Positions 1,908 through 45,453 of a DNA stretch of 64,000 nt are shown here, one piece after another (positions within the stretch are counted from its first letter, which is position 1; every line of letters begins with the position of its first letter). The notes under the pieces were generated by a model that saw nothing but the letters and a program-made list of their open reading frames with translations, made no database searches and had not been told where the DNA came from. The stretch covers positions 1 through 64,000 of the forward strand of contig QNYO01000045.1 of NCBI GenBank assembly GCA_003978765.1. The letters are read 5' to 3'. Origin of the DNA: Hydrogenimonas sp. (lineage in GTDB: Bacteria > Campylobacterota > Campylobacteria > Campylobacterales > Hydrogenimonadaceae). Both the position numbers and the translations under genes were made by a program.

Positions 1908-3038
1908 TTGACTGAACTTAGCTATTATGAAATACTTGAAATCGAACGGACTGCAACACAAGATGAGATTAAAAAAGCCTATCGTAAGCTGGCACTAAAG
2001 TACCATCCAGACCGTAATCCGGATGACAAAGAGGCCGAAGAGAAGTTCAAACTCATCAATGAGGCTTACCAAGTTCTCAGTGATGAGAAGAAACGTGCCG
2101 TCTATGACCGCTATGGTAAAGCAGGTCTTGAGGGGCAAGGCTTCCACGGCTTTGAAGGACAAAGCTACGACGATATTATGGATGATTTAAGTGCCATTTT
2201 CGAGTCCGTATTTGGCGGTGGCTTTACAGGTCGAAGAGCAAGCCGTGGTTCAGGAGAAAAGTACAACCTTGACCTATCGGCACAGATGGAGATCAGCTTT
2301 AAAGAGGCAATTTTTGGATGCCAGAAAGAGCTGAAGTACCACTACAAAAAGCCGTGTGAACCGTGTAAGGGTACGGGTGCCAAAGATGGTGCTGTCACCA
2401 CATGTGAGTATTGTAATGGTCAAGGACAGGTCTATATGCGTCAAGGCTTCATGACCTTTGCACAAACCTGTCCACAGTGTCACGGTAGCGGTCAATCGAT
2501 TAAAGAGAAGTGCCCAAGCTGTTCGGGATATGGTTATGAAGAGGTTGAAACAACCATTACTGTCGATATTCCAGAAGGCGTTGACGATGGTAACCGCCTA
2601 CGCATTCCAAATGCTGGAAATATGGCAGTAGATGGTCGCCGTGGTCACCTCTATATCACCTTCTATGTTGAAGAGGATGAACACTTCATCCGCCATGGTG
2701 ATGATATCTACCTTGAAGTACCTGTTTTCTTTACACAGGCTGTCTTAGGTGATACGATTGAAATCCCAACACTCCGTGGAAAAAAAGAACTCAAGTTGCC
2801 ACAAGGGGCTAAAGATAAACAGCAGTTTGTCTTTAGAGGTGAAGGTATCCGTAATGTCCACAGTGGACAGCTTGGAAATCTGATTGCACAGATTACGATT
2901 GTCTATCCAAAATCACTCAACGATAAGCAAAAAGAGCTATTAAGAGAGTTGCAAGAGAGTTTCGGTATCGAATCAAAACCGCATGAAAGTATCTTTGAGT
3001 CAGCCTTTGAGAAGATCAAAGGGTGGTTTAAAAAGTAG
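1908..3038 (+). CDS. dnaJ: Chaperone DnaJ
   Basis: J-domain with HPD ([11 protein letters not shown]), four CxxCxGxG-type zinc repeats. The listed ORF starts at 1614, but the conserved N-terminus and a CAGGAG SD support TTG at 1908. Confidence 0.93.
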
Positions 3039-3060
3039 TCGCTTTCACGCTACCACTTAG

Positions 3061-3079
3061 GGAGGGCTAACAGCCCTCC
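3061..3079 (+). terminator. Hairpin terminator after dnaJ
   Basis: GGAGGGCT-AAC-AGCCCTCC (8 bp perfect stem) followed by a pyrimidine-rich TCTTCTTC...TTTTTT run. Confidence 0.65.
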
Positions 3080-3086
3080 TCTTCTT

Positions 3087-6000
3087 CTACTTCTCTTTTT
3101 TGATCGGTAAAAGCTCACGTTTACGATACGCTAAAAGAATCGTCACTGCCACAACTACAACTACATAATAGACAAATGTTGGAATCGGTACAGGGTCACC
3201 TTTTGCATAAGAGTGCATGCCTGAAAGATAGTAGTTGACACCAAAATAGGTCATGACAACCGAGCTAAATGCCAAAAGTGATGCAACATTGAAGGCAAAA
3301 ATACCCTTCATCGACTTAATAAAGCGCAGGTGAACCACAACCGCATAGATAAGAATTGTGACCAGTGCCCATGTCTCTTTTGGGTCCCATCCCCAGTAGC
3401 GTCCCCAACTCTCATTCGCCCAGACACCACCTAAGAAGTTTCCAACGGTCAAGAGTGAAAGCCCAAAAATGAGGCTCATCTCATTGATATGGGTCAATTC
3501 ACGGATTGAGTATTCGATATTGGTACGATTCTCACCATGTTTAATGATGTAGAGCCAAAGGGTAATAAATCCAAGCAGTGCACCCAACCCAAGGAAACCG
3601 TAGCTTGCCGTAATAACAGCCACGTGAATCATAAGCCAATAGGATTTCAAAACAGGTACAAGGTTGGTAATCTCTGGATCCAACCAGTTAAGGTGGGCAA
3701 CAAAGAGAATCAAGCCCGACAAAATCCCTGTCGCCGCTAAAGTAATCGGTGACTTTTTAGAGAAGATAAAGCCTGCTAAGAGTGTTGCCCATGCGATATA
3801 GAGCATCGACTCATACCCATTACTCCACGGTGCGTGACCTGAAATATACCATCGAAGTCCAAGCCCTATGGTTTGAACCAAAAAGCCTGCAACCAAAACA
3901 GCCATTGCAATACGAACAGGCCACTTAAGATGGAACTTTGGCTTGATAATATGGGCAATGGTGAGCATCAAAAGGATAAAACCGATACCCAAATAGAGCG
4001 GTATTAAGCGTTGGAAAGGCTTCATCTCATTCATCCAAAGCTCTGCTTCAATACGCCCTTTGGTGGGAATGATTGCCGCACCATAAAATTGTTGATACTC
4101 TTTAATCACCTCCAACGCTTTATCTGCTTTGCTCCAGTTCCCATCGGTCAATGCACCATCAATATTATTGAAATAGTTTGCAAGAATCGCTTGAACAAAC
4201 CTTCCATTCTTCTCATTAAACTGTTTCATCGCATCAAGCGGTGCATACCAGCGTCCTGTCTTATCTTTCGGATTCGGGAAGATACGCAGGAGTGATCCGG
4301 TAAAGGTCATATACATCACGTTGACCCGCTCATCAACCTTTAGAATCTCTTTATCAAGCTTCGTACGCTCTGCTGGACGCTTACGGGTAATCTCTTCGAC
4401 CAGTGTACCGAGTTTATAGCTCTCTTTTTGTGAAAAGTCGAAAAAGTCGTTAAAAGTTGCATATTTGAGCTTTTTATCGATACCGATAATATCATTTACA
4501 CCTGGTAAGGAGATCTTAATCATCGGTATATTCTGCCAATGCTCTGGGCGGATAATCATACTTAAAAAGATTTGATCCGCTTCAAGCCCAAAGTGCTCCT
4601 CTTTTCGACTGATTTTGCGTAGAACCTCTCGTGCCAATGTATCAACTGGCTCAATCCGCCCCCCATTATCTTGCACCAACAGCTCACCAAACTTTTCGGC
4701 ATGTGCTTTTGGAATGACAGGTAGATCTTTGGGGCGTTCAATCTCACTCGCATAACTTGGAAGTGCAAAGATGCTTGAAAGTGCTAAAACCGCAATCAGT
4801 GAGGCACACTTTTTAGAGAGTTTCTGAAGATCACGCGCACGACGCATCAAAGTTTGGAATCGGCTTGAATAGGTCAACATCGAGCCAAACATACCAATGG
4901 CAAGAAGCAGATACCCCAAATAGGTTGGCAGTGTTCCTGGGTCATGGTTTACAGACAAAATGGTTCCTTTCTCATCCATATCATAGGAGCTTTGGAAGAA
5001 GCGGTAGCCTTGATAATCAAGGACATGGTTCATATAGATACGATATGGCATCTTCACCCCATTTTTTGGATCGATCACAATCACTTCACTCGCATACGAA
5101 GATGGACTCATTGATCCAGGATAACGTTCAAGCTGGAAGTCAACCAGTTTTAATGCAAATGGAAGGTGAATCATACGTGCACCGTAGCTGACGGCAAGTG
5201 TCCAATCTTTCAACTGCACATGGACAGGATCACCCGGCTGTCCTTTGGCTCCAAAGACCGTGACAACCTTTGAAGTATCCCCCATCGTCAACTTCAACTC
5301 CACAGCATCGAGCATACTACGCATCATTGGTCCACTCTGCTTACTATCCGCACTGCTTACAACAATTTTAGCGTGTGGCAATGCCTGCTTAATAACAAAG
5401 TTAACACCTGATGTACTATAAAGATGGCGTGTTTTAAGCTCTTGATCACCCGCTTCAAGCATACCAGAGCTTCGGTCGCTCATACGTAAATATTGAAGCA
5501 CAAAAGGGAGTTTTGCTTGGAGTTTATCGCCATCCATATGGATCTCTATAATCGGTTTACTGCTCTGAACATGAACTTCAAAAGCGATCACAAAAGATGG
5601 TGTTTCAAAACTCTCACCCGCTTTGAGTGTCACCTGCTGAGGCTTCTCACCCGATGCAATCATTAATGAGATAATCGGTCCACCCGACTGATCGACAACA
5701 ATCTTTTCGGTCGCATTAGGAATATAACGTAAAACTTCAAGGGTCACTGTCTCATCACCAAAACGGATATCCTGCTCCATATGGTTGCTTCCGATCTTAG
5801 AGAAGAGAACAGGCTTGGCATACATCAAATGTTTACCATCTTTGACAGCTTTAATCTGAAGATAGGTACGATCACTAATAATCGTATTGCTGGTTTGACC
5901 TTCACGAATATGCATCATCCCTTCATAACCGATATAACGGGTAATCGCCGCACCAATAAGAATCACAATAAAGGCGGCATGAAAAACAAAGACAAGACGC

Positions 6001-40666: not shown

Positions 40667-41383
40667 ATGAAACTCTCAACCAAAGCTATCTCTTTTTCAC
40701 TCTCTGCCCTGCTACTGTTTAGCGGATGTGCAGCAAAAAATGGAGAAGCACCCAACAATGCTGAAAAGACAAAACAGGGGGTCTTGATAGGAACCTTGGC
40801 AGGAGCGGCACTTGGTGCGATTACAAGCAAGCACCATAAAGGAAAGAATGCAGCCATTGGGGCAGCTGTTGGTGCATTGGCAGGTGGTGTTATTGGCTAT
40901 AGTCTTGATAAGCAGGCTGATGAGATTGCCTCTTCCATGAATACCAGTGTCAGTAGCAATGAACAAGAGGCTGCAAAGTTTCAAGATATTATCGTCACAA
41001 AAAATGAGAACTATGTCAAAATTACTTTTAAAAGTGCCATGATGTTTGAGACCAATCAAGCCGATCCCACACCTGAAGCCAAAGAGAAGATTAGACGACT
41101 TGTTGATGTCTTAAAACACTATCCAGAAACCATTGTACAGGTTGTGGGACATACCGATAGTCGTGGCTCTTACGACTATAACCTCAAACTCTCTCAAGAG
41201 CGTGCTCTGCGTGTGGCAAAAATGCTTAAAGATTTGGGAGTGACCAATACACTCTACTCACGGGGCTGTTCATTTGTCAAACCACTTGTTCCAAACGATT
41301 CACCTGCCAATATGGCGATCAATCGTCGTGTTGAGATCTATCTCTATCCAAGTGTCGAGAAGGTGATCGATGTGTGTCGCTAA
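40667..41383 (+). CDS. OmpA-family lipoprotein with glycine zipper
   Basis: Lipobox LLLFSGCAAK; GTLAGAALGAI; OmpA motif VVGHTDSRGSYDYNLKLSQERALRVAKML ... NRRVEIYL. Confidence 0.92.
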   Translation: MKLSTKAISFSLSALLLFSGCAAKNGEAPNNAEKTKQGVLIGTLAGAALGAITSKHHKGKNAAIGAAVGALAGGVIGYSLDKQADEIASSMNTSVSSNEQEAAKFQDIIVTKNENYVKITFKSAMMFETNQADPTPEAKEKIRRLVDVLKHYPETIVQVVGHTDSRGSYDYNLKLSQERALRVAKMLKDLGVTNTLYSRGCSFVKPLVPNDSPANMAINRRVEIYLYPSVEKVIDVCR

Positions 41384-43133
41384 CATGTAGGTGTGATTTG
41401 AAGTAGTTACGAATATTATCATACATATAGCCATTAGGCTCTTTGTAAAAGAGGTCAGACTGCTTGACCTCATCGATCGAATATTTACCCATACTGGCCA
41501 ATAGTCCAACCATTCCATCAAGAAGCTTTTCATGATACAGAGCAATATGGCGTGACTTCTGCTCCACTAAAAATGAGGCTCGCTTGCGTAGGTCCTGTGT
41601 GGCTAACCCCACAGGACAGTGACGCCCATTGGCACCACTACACTCTCTGGCACGAATACACCCTGCACTCATCATAAACCCCCGTGCAATTGCAATAAAA
41701 TCGGCACCCAGTGCTTTAAGTACAAGCACATCATCGGGTGTTAAAACCTTTTCACTGCCAATCAGCTTGACATGCTCTCGAATCCCTGCCGTACGCAATA
41801 CCTCATCAACAATATAGATCGCCTCTTTAAGCGGTAGCCCCATACGTAACATCATCTCCAAAGGAGCAGCACCGCTTCCCCCATCACCACCATCAATCGT
41901 TAAAAAGTCGGGATAGGCTTGGGAATCTGCTTGAATACGTAGGCGTATCTCATCAATAATCGGTTCAATATCTTCACGTGATGAGATGACAATCTTAATC
42001 CCTACCGGTTTACCCGAAAGACTCTTGAGTTTGCCAATAAAGTCAAAGAGCATACCAATTGAGTCATAAAAAGGAAAACGGTTTGGACTCACAATATCTT
42101 GAAAAGGTTCAACCCCACGATAGTAAGCAATCGCCTCTGTCACCTTTTCAGCAAGAAGTTTACCACCTGTCTGCTTCGCCCCTTGAGCAAGCTTAATCTC
42201 TGTCATTTTACAAAAACGCATCACTTTGGTATAACGCACTTCATCAAACGTACCTTCACTATCACGCACCCCATAGAGTCCACTGCCGATCTGAAAGATA
42301 AAGTCAGGGAGATCTTTGGGTACACTTTTAGGAAAGTCAGAGAGTGGTCGATTCCAGTTGACACGGAAACAGGTCATATGCTTCTTATCAAACAAAAAAG
42401 TCTCCGCCTCTTTTTTGGGTAAAACAAGGGTACGGTAGATATCGACAGCCACCTCTTGATTAAAACAGAAGTTAAAAAGATAGTAGACCCCTTTGGCAAA
42501 CCATGTCCCTTCATAGTACTCAAACCACTTCTGCTCACGAGGATCACACTGGTGTGTATAGAAAAAGTTTGTTGTCAACCCACCTTCACCCGTATTGATT
42601 GGAAATTTTCCAAGATAAGCCCCTTTTGTAAAGGCTTGTGTCGCTTCTGGTGATACCGAACCATCACTCAAACCACTGCGTCCAATGATGGAACGTGTTG
42701 TAAATGGAGATTCGCACCCCTCTCCAAAGGTCACTTCAAATGTTGGATCAATCTCCTCTTGGTTTAAAACACGTAGTGCATTTTTCAATCCAATAAGACC
42801 ATGATTAATCGGTTGTCCAGGAGAAAACGATGAAAAAAGTGCACGCCCTTCTGCTGCATTGTAAACCCATCGTACCTTATCAAACGACTCATAAAACTTC
42901 TCATCACCAAAGTATTGGCGCATAGGATCACGAATCATATAGAAGAAGTAGCGGAGTCGACCAATAAGTGGATAGTTAATAAGAAGTTGATTTTCACGTT
43001 GAACAAAGCGATCGTAGATGATCATAAAGAGTGCCATGATCACAGCTATAATAAAGAGAATTTTGAGCAGAAAGATAAGAACAGAGAAGCTAAATACATC
43101 CGACCTTTGCGTAAATTCTAACAGTTTTTCCAT
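41319..43133 (-). CDS. Membrane-anchored FMN-binding glutamate-synthase-like protein
   Basis: N-terminal TM; DFLTIDGGDGGSGAAPLEMM, GADFIAIARGFMMSAGCIRARECSGANGRHCPVGLATQ (3Fe-4S cysteines). Confidence 0.9.
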   Translation of the reverse strand: MEKLLEFTQRSDVFSFSVLIFLLKILFIIAVIMALFMIIYDRFVQRENQLLINYPLIGRLRYFFYMIRDPMRQYFGDEKFYESFDKVRWVYNAAEGRALFSSFSPGQPINHGLIGLKNALRVLNQEEIDPTFEVTFGEGCESPFTTRSIIGRSGLSDGSVSPEATQAFTKGAYLGKFPINTGEGGLTTNFFYTHQCDPREQKWFEYYEGTWFAKGVYYLFNFCFNQEVAVDIYRTLVLPKKEAETFLFDKKHMTCFRVNWNRPLSDFPKSVPKDLPDFIFQIGSGLYGVRDSEGTFDEVRYTKVMRFCKMTEIKLAQGAKQTGGKLLAEKVTEAIAYYRGVEPFQDIVSPNRFPFYDSIGMLFDFIGKLKSLSGKPVGIKIVISSREDIEPIIDEIRLRIQADSQAYPDFLTIDGGDGGSGAAPLEMMLRMGLPLKEAIYIVDEVLRTAGIREHVKLIGSEKVLTPDDVLVLKALGADFIAIARGFMMSAGCIRARECSGANGRHCPVGLATQDLRKRASFLVEQKSRHIALYHEKLLDGMVGLLASMGKYSIDEVKQSDLFYKEPNGYMYDNIRNYFKSHLHVSDTHRSPSRHLDRDRSQHDD

Positions 43134-43152: not shown

Positions 43153-43596
43153 CTACACTTCCTCTTTAAATATCAGACGATCAATACTAAAACGTCCAGG
43201 GCCATGTGATGCCAATGCAAAGAGCATCAACATATAGTAGAGTGGTATCTCAAACCCATTATTTCCAGCTGAAAATCCATGAGGAAGGTGAACAGTTATA
43301 ATCGCGACAATCATAACAACCATTAAAGGGAGAGTAATCAGACGTGTCATCAGCCCAAGTGAGAGGAGAATGACACCCGTCAGCTCTGTTGTTGCTGCCA
43401 TATAGGCATTGAGTGTCGGAAAAGGTATGCCCATCGAACCAAACCACTGAGCAACCGCTGAGATATCATTCCACTTCATCATGGCTGGCTCAAAAAATCC
43501 GTACGCAAGTACCAAGCGTATCAAAAGCAGTGCAATACTCTTACAGTATCCCAATAACCTTGAAAACTCTATATAGACCTCTTTAAACAACATCAT
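43153..43596 (-). CDS. DoxX family membrane protein
   Basis: LLIRLVLAYGFFEPAMMKW, PTLNAYMAATTELTGVILLSLGLMTRL; follows the HvfC-like gene. Confidence 0.85.
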   Translation of the reverse strand: MMLFKEVYIEFSRLLGYCKSIALLLIRLVLAYGFFEPAMMKWNDISAVAQWFGSMGIPFPTLNAYMAATTELTGVILLSLGLMTRLITLPLMVVMIVAIITVHLPHGFSAGNNGFEIPLYYMLMLFALASHGPGRFSIDRLIFKEEV

Positions 43597-43605
43597 ACAC
43601 TCCCT

Positions 43606-44277
43606 CTAAACGAGAACCCCTTCTTTAAGGAGCCCTTTAAGCCCTTTTTTAAGCACCACTTTGGCATCTTTAGAATCAACACCATACTTTTTGGCAACCT
43701 TTTTAACACATTGCATCAGAGGTTTTTGTCCATCACACTGCTTGATCAGTTCTCCCATAAATGGGGTCACTTCTATCCACTCAACATCACCTGAAGCACT
43801 CTGATACATGACAATCCAATAGTCACCTTTGGGCTTAAATGCTCCATACATGACAGGATAGGAGAAACGTCTCACAGATGCACTTTTGCCTATCTTATAG
43901 GGTTTTGAAAAGTCAATCTTATCGGTTTTGGGTCGCTTACGGGTTGCCATCATCAACTCCACCTCTTTCCACTCATACCATAGAAGATCTTTCAAATATT
44001 TGGGCTTTTTCATCTGAGATCGTACAAACTTACCAAATTTCTTAGGCATCTTCCAGATAAAAGGGGTCGTCGTTTCGGTAGCGATAAAGCCTTTAATAAG
44101 CTTTTTCCACCGCTTTGCACCGATCTGAGTATGAAACATCGGATAGGTTGCTAAAAGCACCTCTTCAAAGCGATAAAAGATCAACTTTTCATAGATATCT
44201 CCATGCTGATACTCCTTAGCATCTCCCATACGAATCGATTTAAAGAAATGTTTTAGAACCTTTTTCTCATGCTGCAT
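43606..44277 (-). CDS. HvfC/BufC-like RiPP maturation partner (DUF2063-type)
   Basis: Position after the MNIO gene with 11-nt overlap; YEKLIFYRFEEVLLATYPMFHTQIGAKRWKKLIKGFI and DLLWYEWKEVELM match the family pattern. Confidence 0.8.
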   Translation of the reverse strand: MQHEKKVLKHFFKSIRMGDAKEYQHGDIYEKLIFYRFEEVLLATYPMFHTQIGAKRWKKLIKGFIATETTTPFIWKMPKKFGKFVRSQMKKPKYLKDLLWYEWKEVELMMATRKRPKTDKIDFSKPYKIGKSASVRRFSYPVMYGAFKPKGDYWIVMYQSASGDVEWIEVTPFMGELIKQCDGQKPLMQCVKKVAKKYGVDSKDAKVVLKKGLKGLLKEGVLV

Positions 44278-45073
44278 GATAGATACCTTGCATCGTCTGA
44301 TACTCTTTTATAAGCTCAGTCAGTGGTGGAATATTATTGTCTCGCTCAAGCATAATAGGTAACCTCTTTTTTTCCATCGTATAACGCATCAGATCCCATA
44401 CAACATCTTTAACCGCCATACCGTGGGTATCAATCAAAAGGTCATCATCATAAACCATATGTCCTGCAATATGACAATAGGCGACACAATCAAGATCAAT
44501 CGCATCGATAAAATCTTTGGCATTAAATCCATGATTAAAGCTATTGACAAAGAGATTATTAAGATCTAAAAGGAGTTTGGCACCACTTCGATCTAAAATT
44601 GCCATAATAAATGCACTCTCTTCCATCGTTGATGGCAAGCATGTATAGTAGGTGGGATTTTCAATAATGAGTGGACGTTCAAGAATCTCTTCAACCCTTC
44701 CAATCTTCTTAACAATTCCCTCAACCATCGGCTCTGTCATCGGTAGTGGTAGCAACTCATAACTCTGTACACCATCGAGTGATGTAAAGCTTAAATGCTC
44801 TGAATACTCTTCAATCCCATACCGATCAAGAAACTTTTTAAGGCGTTTGAGATGTTTAATATTGAGTGTTTCAACATCACCTAAAGAGAGGGATAGACCG
44901 TGCGCAACTACGGAAAACTTCTCACATATTCGCGCAAACCTTTTGGCCTCTTTTTTATCCATATGCATCAGATTTTCAGGTGCCACTTCAAGGAAATCGA
45001 TCTCTCCTTGATAGTTTTCAATCTCATCGATAAAGTTATCCCTTAACCCAAGGCCACATCCATCGATACACAT
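44267..45073 (-). CDS. DUF692/MNIO multinuclear iron oxidative enzyme (HvfB/BufB-like)
   Basis: GCGLGLRDNF, DFLEVAPENLM, VAHGLSLSLG, EYSEHLSFTSLDG, LIIENPTYYT, LLLDLNNLFVNSFNHG, YCHIAGHM, DTHGMAV. Confidence 0.92.
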   Translation of the reverse strand: MCIDGCGLGLRDNFIDEIENYQGEIDFLEVAPENLMHMDKKEAKRFARICEKFSVVAHGLSLSLGDVETLNIKHLKRLKKFLDRYGIEEYSEHLSFTSLDGVQSYELLPLPMTEPMVEGIVKKIGRVEEILERPLIIENPTYYTCLPSTMEESAFIMAILDRSGAKLLLDLNNLFVNSFNHGFNAKDFIDAIDLDCVAYCHIAGHMVYDDDLLIDTHGMAVKDVVWDLMRYTMEKKRLPIMLERDNNIPPLTELIKEYQTMQGIYHAA

Positions 45074-45123
45074 AATCTATTGGATGCTTTCATGATATTG
45101 GGCCATCTTAGATACAGACACCA

Positions 45124-45453
45124 TCATTCATCATTCTCTTTTTTCATTGTACCACTACACTTACCGGTACCACACTGCCCCTTCATCTTCTCTCTCTTCT
45201 CCTGCATCTTAGCACCACACTTACCCTTCATCTTCTCTTGCATCTTCTCATCACAATTGCTTCCACACTTCCCTTTCATATCACGATCCATCTTACCGGC
45301 ACATGTACCTTTAGGGTTTTGCTTCTTCTCATGTAGTTCTGTCCCACATTTACTTGGAACATATCCATTCATACCAGCTACTGCAGCAGTTGCACCTGCA
45401 GCCATTGCACCTAAAATTACTCTCATCGCTTTACGTCGATTCATCGTTCTCAT
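45124..45453 (-). CDS. HvfA/bufferin-like Cys-rich RiPP precursor
   Basis: MRTMNRRKAMRVILGAMAAGATAAVAGMNGYVPSKCGTELHEKKQNPKGTCAGKMDRDMKGKCGSNCDEKMQEKMKGKCGAKMQEKREKMKGQCGTGKCSGTMKKENDE: leader plus 7 Cys, mostly in K/Q-C-G contexts; immediately upstream of the MNIO gene. Confidence 0.88.
   Translation of the reverse strand: MRTMNRRKAMRVILGAMAAGATAAVAGMNGYVPSKCGTELHEKKQNPKGTCAGKMDRDMKGKCGSNCDEKMQEKMKGKCGAKMQEKREKMKGQCGTGKCSGTMKKENDE

Follow-up and report, generated by a model that had tools for sequence, protein, structure and literature searches.

What kind of peptide-modifying operon does this locus encode, and what might its product do? The preliminary description had recognised four co-oriented open reading frames, and all four are in place on the minus strand of the window, the whole 64-kb stretch of Hydrogenimonas DNA analysed here. 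The precursor gene (45124-45453) encodes an HvfA-like peptide of 109 aa with seven Cys, whose N terminus, MRTMNRRKAMRVILGAMAAGATAAVA (45376-45453), appears signal peptide-like when judged by eye from the sequence. The genes that follow on the same strand encode an HvfB-like MNIO (DUF692/MbnB_TglH_ChrH, PF05114; 44267-45073, 268 aa), an HvfC/PME1-type partner with DUF2063 and PqqD-like RRE parts (43606-44277, 223 aa), which overlaps the MNIO gene by 11 nt, and an HvfX-type DoxX membrane protein (43153-43596, 147 aa). What had been overlooked is a gene for a membrane-anchored Glu_synthase-like protein (41319-43133, also on the minus strand; PF01645, 200.8 bits), which starts 19 bp past the DoxX stop and is probably a fifth member of the operon. 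In our neighbour analysis, members of this family were found close to HvfX in 14 Campylobacterales genomes, some with and some without MNIO (elsewhere at L175:4328-6025 and L104:3034-4803). The locus is not a chance arrangement, because the precursor-MNIO-HvfC order, with the precursor directly upstream, is kept in seven of the 18 genomes of the genus, and because a search for secreted KCG-repeat ORFs matched a single site in the window, the precursor itself, and nothing in 293 kb of reversed sequence; conservation, synteny and the reversed-sequence controls together rule out a chance ORF or shadow gene. A scan for promoters and terminators found no more sites than in shuffled sequence. Elsewhere in the window's own genome, away from the operon, there is a second HvfX/DoxX copy (G000:C33:1288-1551).

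The enzyme genes indicate the class. The MNIO matches PF05114 at 292 bits (cut-off 25) and, among the more specific models, scores highest against HvfB (PRK05409, 305.6 bits, though below the naming cut-off of 360), followed by BufB (256.3), ApyH (88.6) and MbnB (44.3). It aligns with PDB 3BWW (E=1.7e-48), and its closest named relatives come from Hydrogenimonas MAGs (72% and 67% identity). All 20 homologues compared keep residues H58, H93, E138, D170, N172, N173, H181, H201, H205, D215, H217 and E243 unchanged; judging from the motifs, D215 and H217 (in DTHG) and the NN motif probably correspond to D242, H244 and N175 of HvfB, site-3 residues whose replacement abolishes activity (PMC13419390). 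The partner passes PF09836 (33.7 bits, cut-off 27.2) and scores 82.5 bits against the HvfC model NF050145, below its cut-off of 142. The sole strong PDB match of its AlphaFold model (pLDDT 88.9) is 3DEE (TM 0.71/0.78), which is NGO1945, a DUF2063/PME1 protein, with PqqD-type RREs lower in the match list. The DoxX protein clears the HvfX model NF050144 (133.5 bits, cut-off 80). With an MNIO nearest HvfB, a partner that matches HvfC and the 3DEE fold, and a DoxX protein above the HvfX cut-off, the original reading of an HvfA/bufferin-type RiPP operon holds, and we can be more specific: this is an hvfABCX-like member of the MNIO-PME1 RiPPs, the wider class named 'captophorin' (PMC13097082), with a precursor of divergent Lys-Cys type. 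The locus has what distinguishes the Lys-Cys group of that class, namely an MNIO of the HvfB/BufB subgroup of PF05114 (though below the HvfB naming cut-off), an adjacent DUF2063/RRE partner (though below that of NF050145) and a secreted Lys-Cys precursor, its signal assigned by eye, preceding the MNIO, together with the HvfX-family DoxX protein of hvfABCX.

The precursor is the most divergent part. After signal-like residues 1-26, which include a twin Arg, comes a Lys/Met/Glu-rich part containing KCG, with Cys at positions 36, 51, 63, 67, 79, 94 and 99, four of them in Lys-Cys motifs and three outside. The signal starts with NRRKAM, a weak twin-arginine-like motif retained in six of the seven MNIO-linked Hydrogenimonas precursors, and as a sequence motif it could direct Tat export of the modified peptide. 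In the window peptide there is neither an EGKCG motif nor the repeated EGKCG/KCGExKCG of HvfA/oxazolin (Buf_EGKCG, NF050137/NF050188), so that the operon is not filed as EGKCG/oxazolin sensu stricto. A family search of the precursor, as the preliminary description had suggested, gave a divided answer: the window peptide matches neither HvfA model (NF050137, NF050188) at E<=1 nor any Pfam family, DUF2282 included, but one of its orthologues, which are found in seven MNIO-containing Hydrogenimonas genomes including the window's own, passes NF050137 KCGExKCG (21.0 against a cut-off of 19.5 bits; genome G001, locus L003, 62% identical to the window precursor). A CGxGKCG pair is common to the MNIO-linked Campylobacterales precursors, its Cys spacing of 5 being identical to that of the HvfA KCGEGKCG, and the window peptide retains one complete C-x4-C pair plus several single KCG-like motifs; by its sequence it looks like a worn Lys-Cys precursor and not a new design. 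The claim of an unusual Cys-rich precursor is thus borne out insofar as EGKCG and any HvfA model match are missing, but not as regards its KCG units, which are a worn form of the shared HvfA pair. That the peptide departs from the 4-Cys DUF2282 bufferin arrangement was correct, as it has no Pfam match and its seven Cys are arranged differently, which rejects a DUF2282 bufferin precursor; since the M-K-G-K-C-G units are a worn HvfA KCGxGKCG pair, this contrast only places the precursor in the known Lys-Cys class. At least three tandem core modules had also been proposed, and here the data disagree: TRF detected no tandem repeat in the DNA that encodes the Cys-rich part, so that clean tandem repeats are rejected, and the protein repeat is degenerate, with a self-similarity modest enough that 18 of 2000 shuffles were equally good.

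The nearest known systems are hvfABCX/oxazolin of Haemophilus influenzae and the fontiphorin operon fonABC (EGKCG class, Buf_EGKCG), which share with the window the order of signal-bearing precursor, MNIO, DUF2063/RRE partner and DoxX (HvfX), an MNIO nearest HvfB, KCG motifs and the Cys spacing of 5 that KCGxGKC has in common with KCGEGKCG. The window peptide differs in the residues before Gly-Lys-Cys, its one complete Cys pair, its irregular spacing, its Lys/Met-rich spacers and its twin-Arg signal, and the locus differs in having MNIO and HvfC proteins below the NCBI naming cut-offs, a Glu_synthase-like gene that follows, and a host in the Campylobacterota, whereas the known systems are from Pseudomonadota. 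With the bufferins Buf1 (DUF2282) and Buf2 it has in common the core of MNIO, DUF2063 partner and DoxX, a secreted Cys precursor and, likely, the same chemistry; in contrast to them, its precursor lacks DUF2282 and the four conserved Cys of Bufferin 1, and its MNIO scores lower against BufB than against HvfB. Methanobactin MbnABC also combines the MNIO superfamily with an RRE partner acting on Cys, but the window MNIO reaches only 44 bits to MbnB, the precursor is a repetitive, secreted peptide, and no MbnC family match came up for the partner. By itself, then, the window operon is a divergent relative of known systems.

HvfBC and FonBC install 5-thiooxazoles, and their products bind Cu (PMC13097082, PMC13419390). 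We infer the reaction, copper binding and function of the window operon by analogy: before export, its enzymes would most likely convert up to six of the seven Cys to 5-thiooxazoles that bind copper. In this scheme the partner (43606-44277) would bind the leader/signal region of the precursor and deliver it to the MNIO (44267-45073), which, with a mixed-valent di-iron site and O2, would convert Cys in KCG-type motifs to 5-thiooxazole, each losing 4 H; once modified, the peptide would be exported, bind periplasmic copper and buffer metal excess, and HvfX would be a membrane accessory of the peptide. The predicted modifiable residues are Cys 36, 51, 63, 79, 94 and 99, for up to -24 Da, and Cys 67, which precedes Asp, would probably stay unmodified because FonBC refuses a Cys before a charged residue; the same enzymes modify DGKCG fully and AKCGA and GKCGT partly (PMC13097082). 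In two sister species (G013 and G017) the operon adjoins a P-type ATPase and a response regulator/histidine kinase pair, which fits copper handling, and the ATPase copy tested, that of G017, passes a Cu-ATPase model. The proposal is weakened by the sub-threshold scores of MNIO and HvfC and the failure of the precursor to match the HvfA models, by the lack of an evident copper gene adjoining the operon within the window, and by the three Cys outside Lys-Cys and the single C-x4-C pair left, since a short substrate with two repeats was modified by FonBC and one with a single repeat was not (PMC13097082). Weighing all of this, we hold the full proposal of an hvfABCX-like operon, a thiooxazole peptide and periplasmic copper buffering with good confidence. 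With it the known range of copper-binding MNIO peptides would come to include Hydrogenimonas and further Campylobacterota, a group apparently not named in surveys of such peptides.

Our sample of 300 Campylobacterales genomes, in which the window's family is represented by 18 genomes of the single genus Hydrogenimonas, shows that MNIO and HvfC co-occur in exactly the same 27 genomes, at least 24 of which have a KCG precursor encoded upstream of the MNIO gene. HvfA-like peptides have a wider distribution: at least 42 MNIO-less genomes, a count that leaves out weak NF050137 matches in G041, G127, G112, G164 and G243, encode a secreted KCG peptide, often beside HvfX (44 peptides inspected). Among these 42 are complete or near-complete genomes in one or two contigs (G003, G032, G134, G169, G196 and G258). 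Approached from HvfX, 27 of 40 loci in MNIO-less genomes have a KCG peptide beside or near them, while 293 kb of reversed sequence yielded none. In this sample MNIO-less precursors are the majority, whereas a published survey, which for the EGKCG type counted them in 67 of 2583 genomes, describes them as rare (PMC12452194). In seven MNIO/HvfC-less Hydrogenimonas genomes the orphan peptide (G003 L211:628-921; G005 L017:1489-1785; G006 L012:1513-1809; G007 L072:1486-1770; G008 L080:1483-1842; G010 L083:1483-1761; G012 L015:1414-1788) occupies the operon's own site, between PilZ/ExbD and a MutS-like gene. This amounts to a natural experiment: close relatives devoid of MNIO/HvfC, nearly all with a GMC pair (see below), keep the same peptide at an unchanged chromosomal position. 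With it one could test if the peptide functions without modification and, since HvfX is often retained along with the peptide in genomes lacking the modifying enzymes, what role HvfX/DoxX plays. Elsewhere, orphan KCG peptides directly follow a YceI-like gene (L085:5769-9879 in G217, L086:4973-5910 in G169 and L087:1946-6023 in G273), and two of these loci, those of G217 and G273, are preceded by a heavy-metal RND pump of the CusA/CzcA type.

It is tempting to ask whether the KCG peptide, with or without HvfX, is the conserved unit and acts mainly unmodified, as a metallothionein-like periplasmic thiolate whose metal affinity or specificity an optional MNIO/HvfC would tune. Its retention in so many MNIO-less genomes, the position of the Hydrogenimonas orphans at the same PyrC-RR-HK-ExbB-ExbD-PilZ-[peptide]-MutS site and the adjoining CusA/CzcA efflux pump in two Arcobacter-like orphans would all suit such a role, as would the CxC found in six of seven Hydrogenimonas orphans against one of seven MNIO-linked peptides (Fisher p 0.03, for genomes that are not independent). 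Yet over all genomes the CxC enrichment is not significant (p 0.25), which rejects CxC as a general mark of MNIO-less peptides; moreover, the operon order is strict wherever MNIO is present, in 139 of 147 MNIO-linked cases a Gly follows the Cys, as one would expect of an enzyme substrate, and the published products of the MNIO-PME1 class are modified. We therefore regard a mainly unmodified peptide as very improbable.

Hydrogenimonas is a sulfur/hydrogen chemolithotroph, which counts toward another reading, in which the modified peptide serves a different metal or stress (zinc, iron, gold, sulfane sulfur or an oxidant) and HvfX/DoxX is a thiol-quinone oxidoreductase. A DoxX homologue has been tied to oxidative and sulfur stress, there are proposals of MNIO systems for other metals (PMC12452194), and pumps of the CusA/CzcA type are not copper-specific by sequence, but the characterised MNIO-PME1 products bind copper and the P-type ATPase beside the G017 operon passes the Cu model, so that we consider a function other than copper unlikely. 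Copper buffering by a thiooxazole peptide remains our preferred reading for the window.

What accompanies the peptide where MNIO is missing? Our neighbour analysis, which covered about 50 mostly MNIO-less loci, found a GMC oxidoreductase (PF00732/PF05199) with a Gluconate_2-dh3 small subunit (PF13618) nearby in 24-25 MNIO-less genomes, including Tat-signalled examples near the KCG peptide or HvfX at L175:1016-2710 and 2661-3131 (G056), L091:959-3107 (G088) and L203:2434-2931 (G090). Because a twin-arginine motif is present in the small subunit in practically every one of 35 cases and the large subunit has FAD glucose and fructose dehydrogenases as its nearest solved relatives (phmmer E=1.3e-42 to 6A2U), the sequences point to a periplasmic dehydrogenase. 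The large and small subunits, twin-arginine motif included, resemble those of the FAD glucose/fructose dehydrogenase complexes (6A2U, 7W2J), but in these MNIO-less relatives, outside the window, no cytochrome subunit was apparent beside the pair, which is linked to KCG peptide and HvfX genes. Of the 42 MNIO-less peptide genomes inspected, 38 have a GMC enzyme, often linked to the gene for the peptide, against four of 21 MNIO-containing genomes with a profile-detected precursor; among MNIO-less genomes the enzyme is present in 34 of 40 with a profile-detected peptide versus 35 of 233 without a peptide match (p about 3e-18, uncorrected for relatedness). Within Hydrogenimonas, seven MNIO-containing genomes lack GMC, seven orphan-peptide genomes have it and four peptide-less genomes have neither system; four Arcobacter-like genomes (the genus label is a guess) carry both enzyme sets.

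Part of this pattern reflects descent. The Hydrogenimonas GMC genomes form one clade (100/100), so that mutual exclusion of MNIO and GMC in the genus is a single clade split and 'seven independent swaps' are rejected. Across a 68-genome GyrA tree, GMC requires about 15 changes and MNIO about 8; counts of phylogenetically independent pairs, for which the GyrA rows G002 and G013, probably in a wrong frame, were left out, gave about 5 for and 0.3 against a peptide-GMC association (median p 0.06), and about 4 of 4 for MNIO/GMC exclusion, too few for significance. A stronger p of 0.004 is biased, because some of the peptides behind it were discovered through their proximity to GMC or HvfX. Many sampled genomes are draft MAGs, and shared ecology could lie behind part of the link. 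The pairing of the KCG peptide in Campylobacterales with an unrelated secreted GMC dehydrogenase, which may or may not act on it, appears to be undescribed so far. One could imagine that the peptide has two alternative partners, either cytoplasmic MNIO and HvfC or a Tat-exported GMC dehydrogenase that has a Gluconate_2-dh3-like subunit, is often encoded beside HvfX and would take over periplasmic oxidative maturation or redox use; we think this distinctly improbable, but if true it would define an MNIO-independent branch of the HvfA-type peptide family. In another Campylobacterales family, divergent Met/Cys-rich secreted peptides (MKCGSGMMQK...) also adjoin the GMC pair (L255:4928-5596 in G051, L257:5117-5560 in G065 and L259:4921-5337 in G077).
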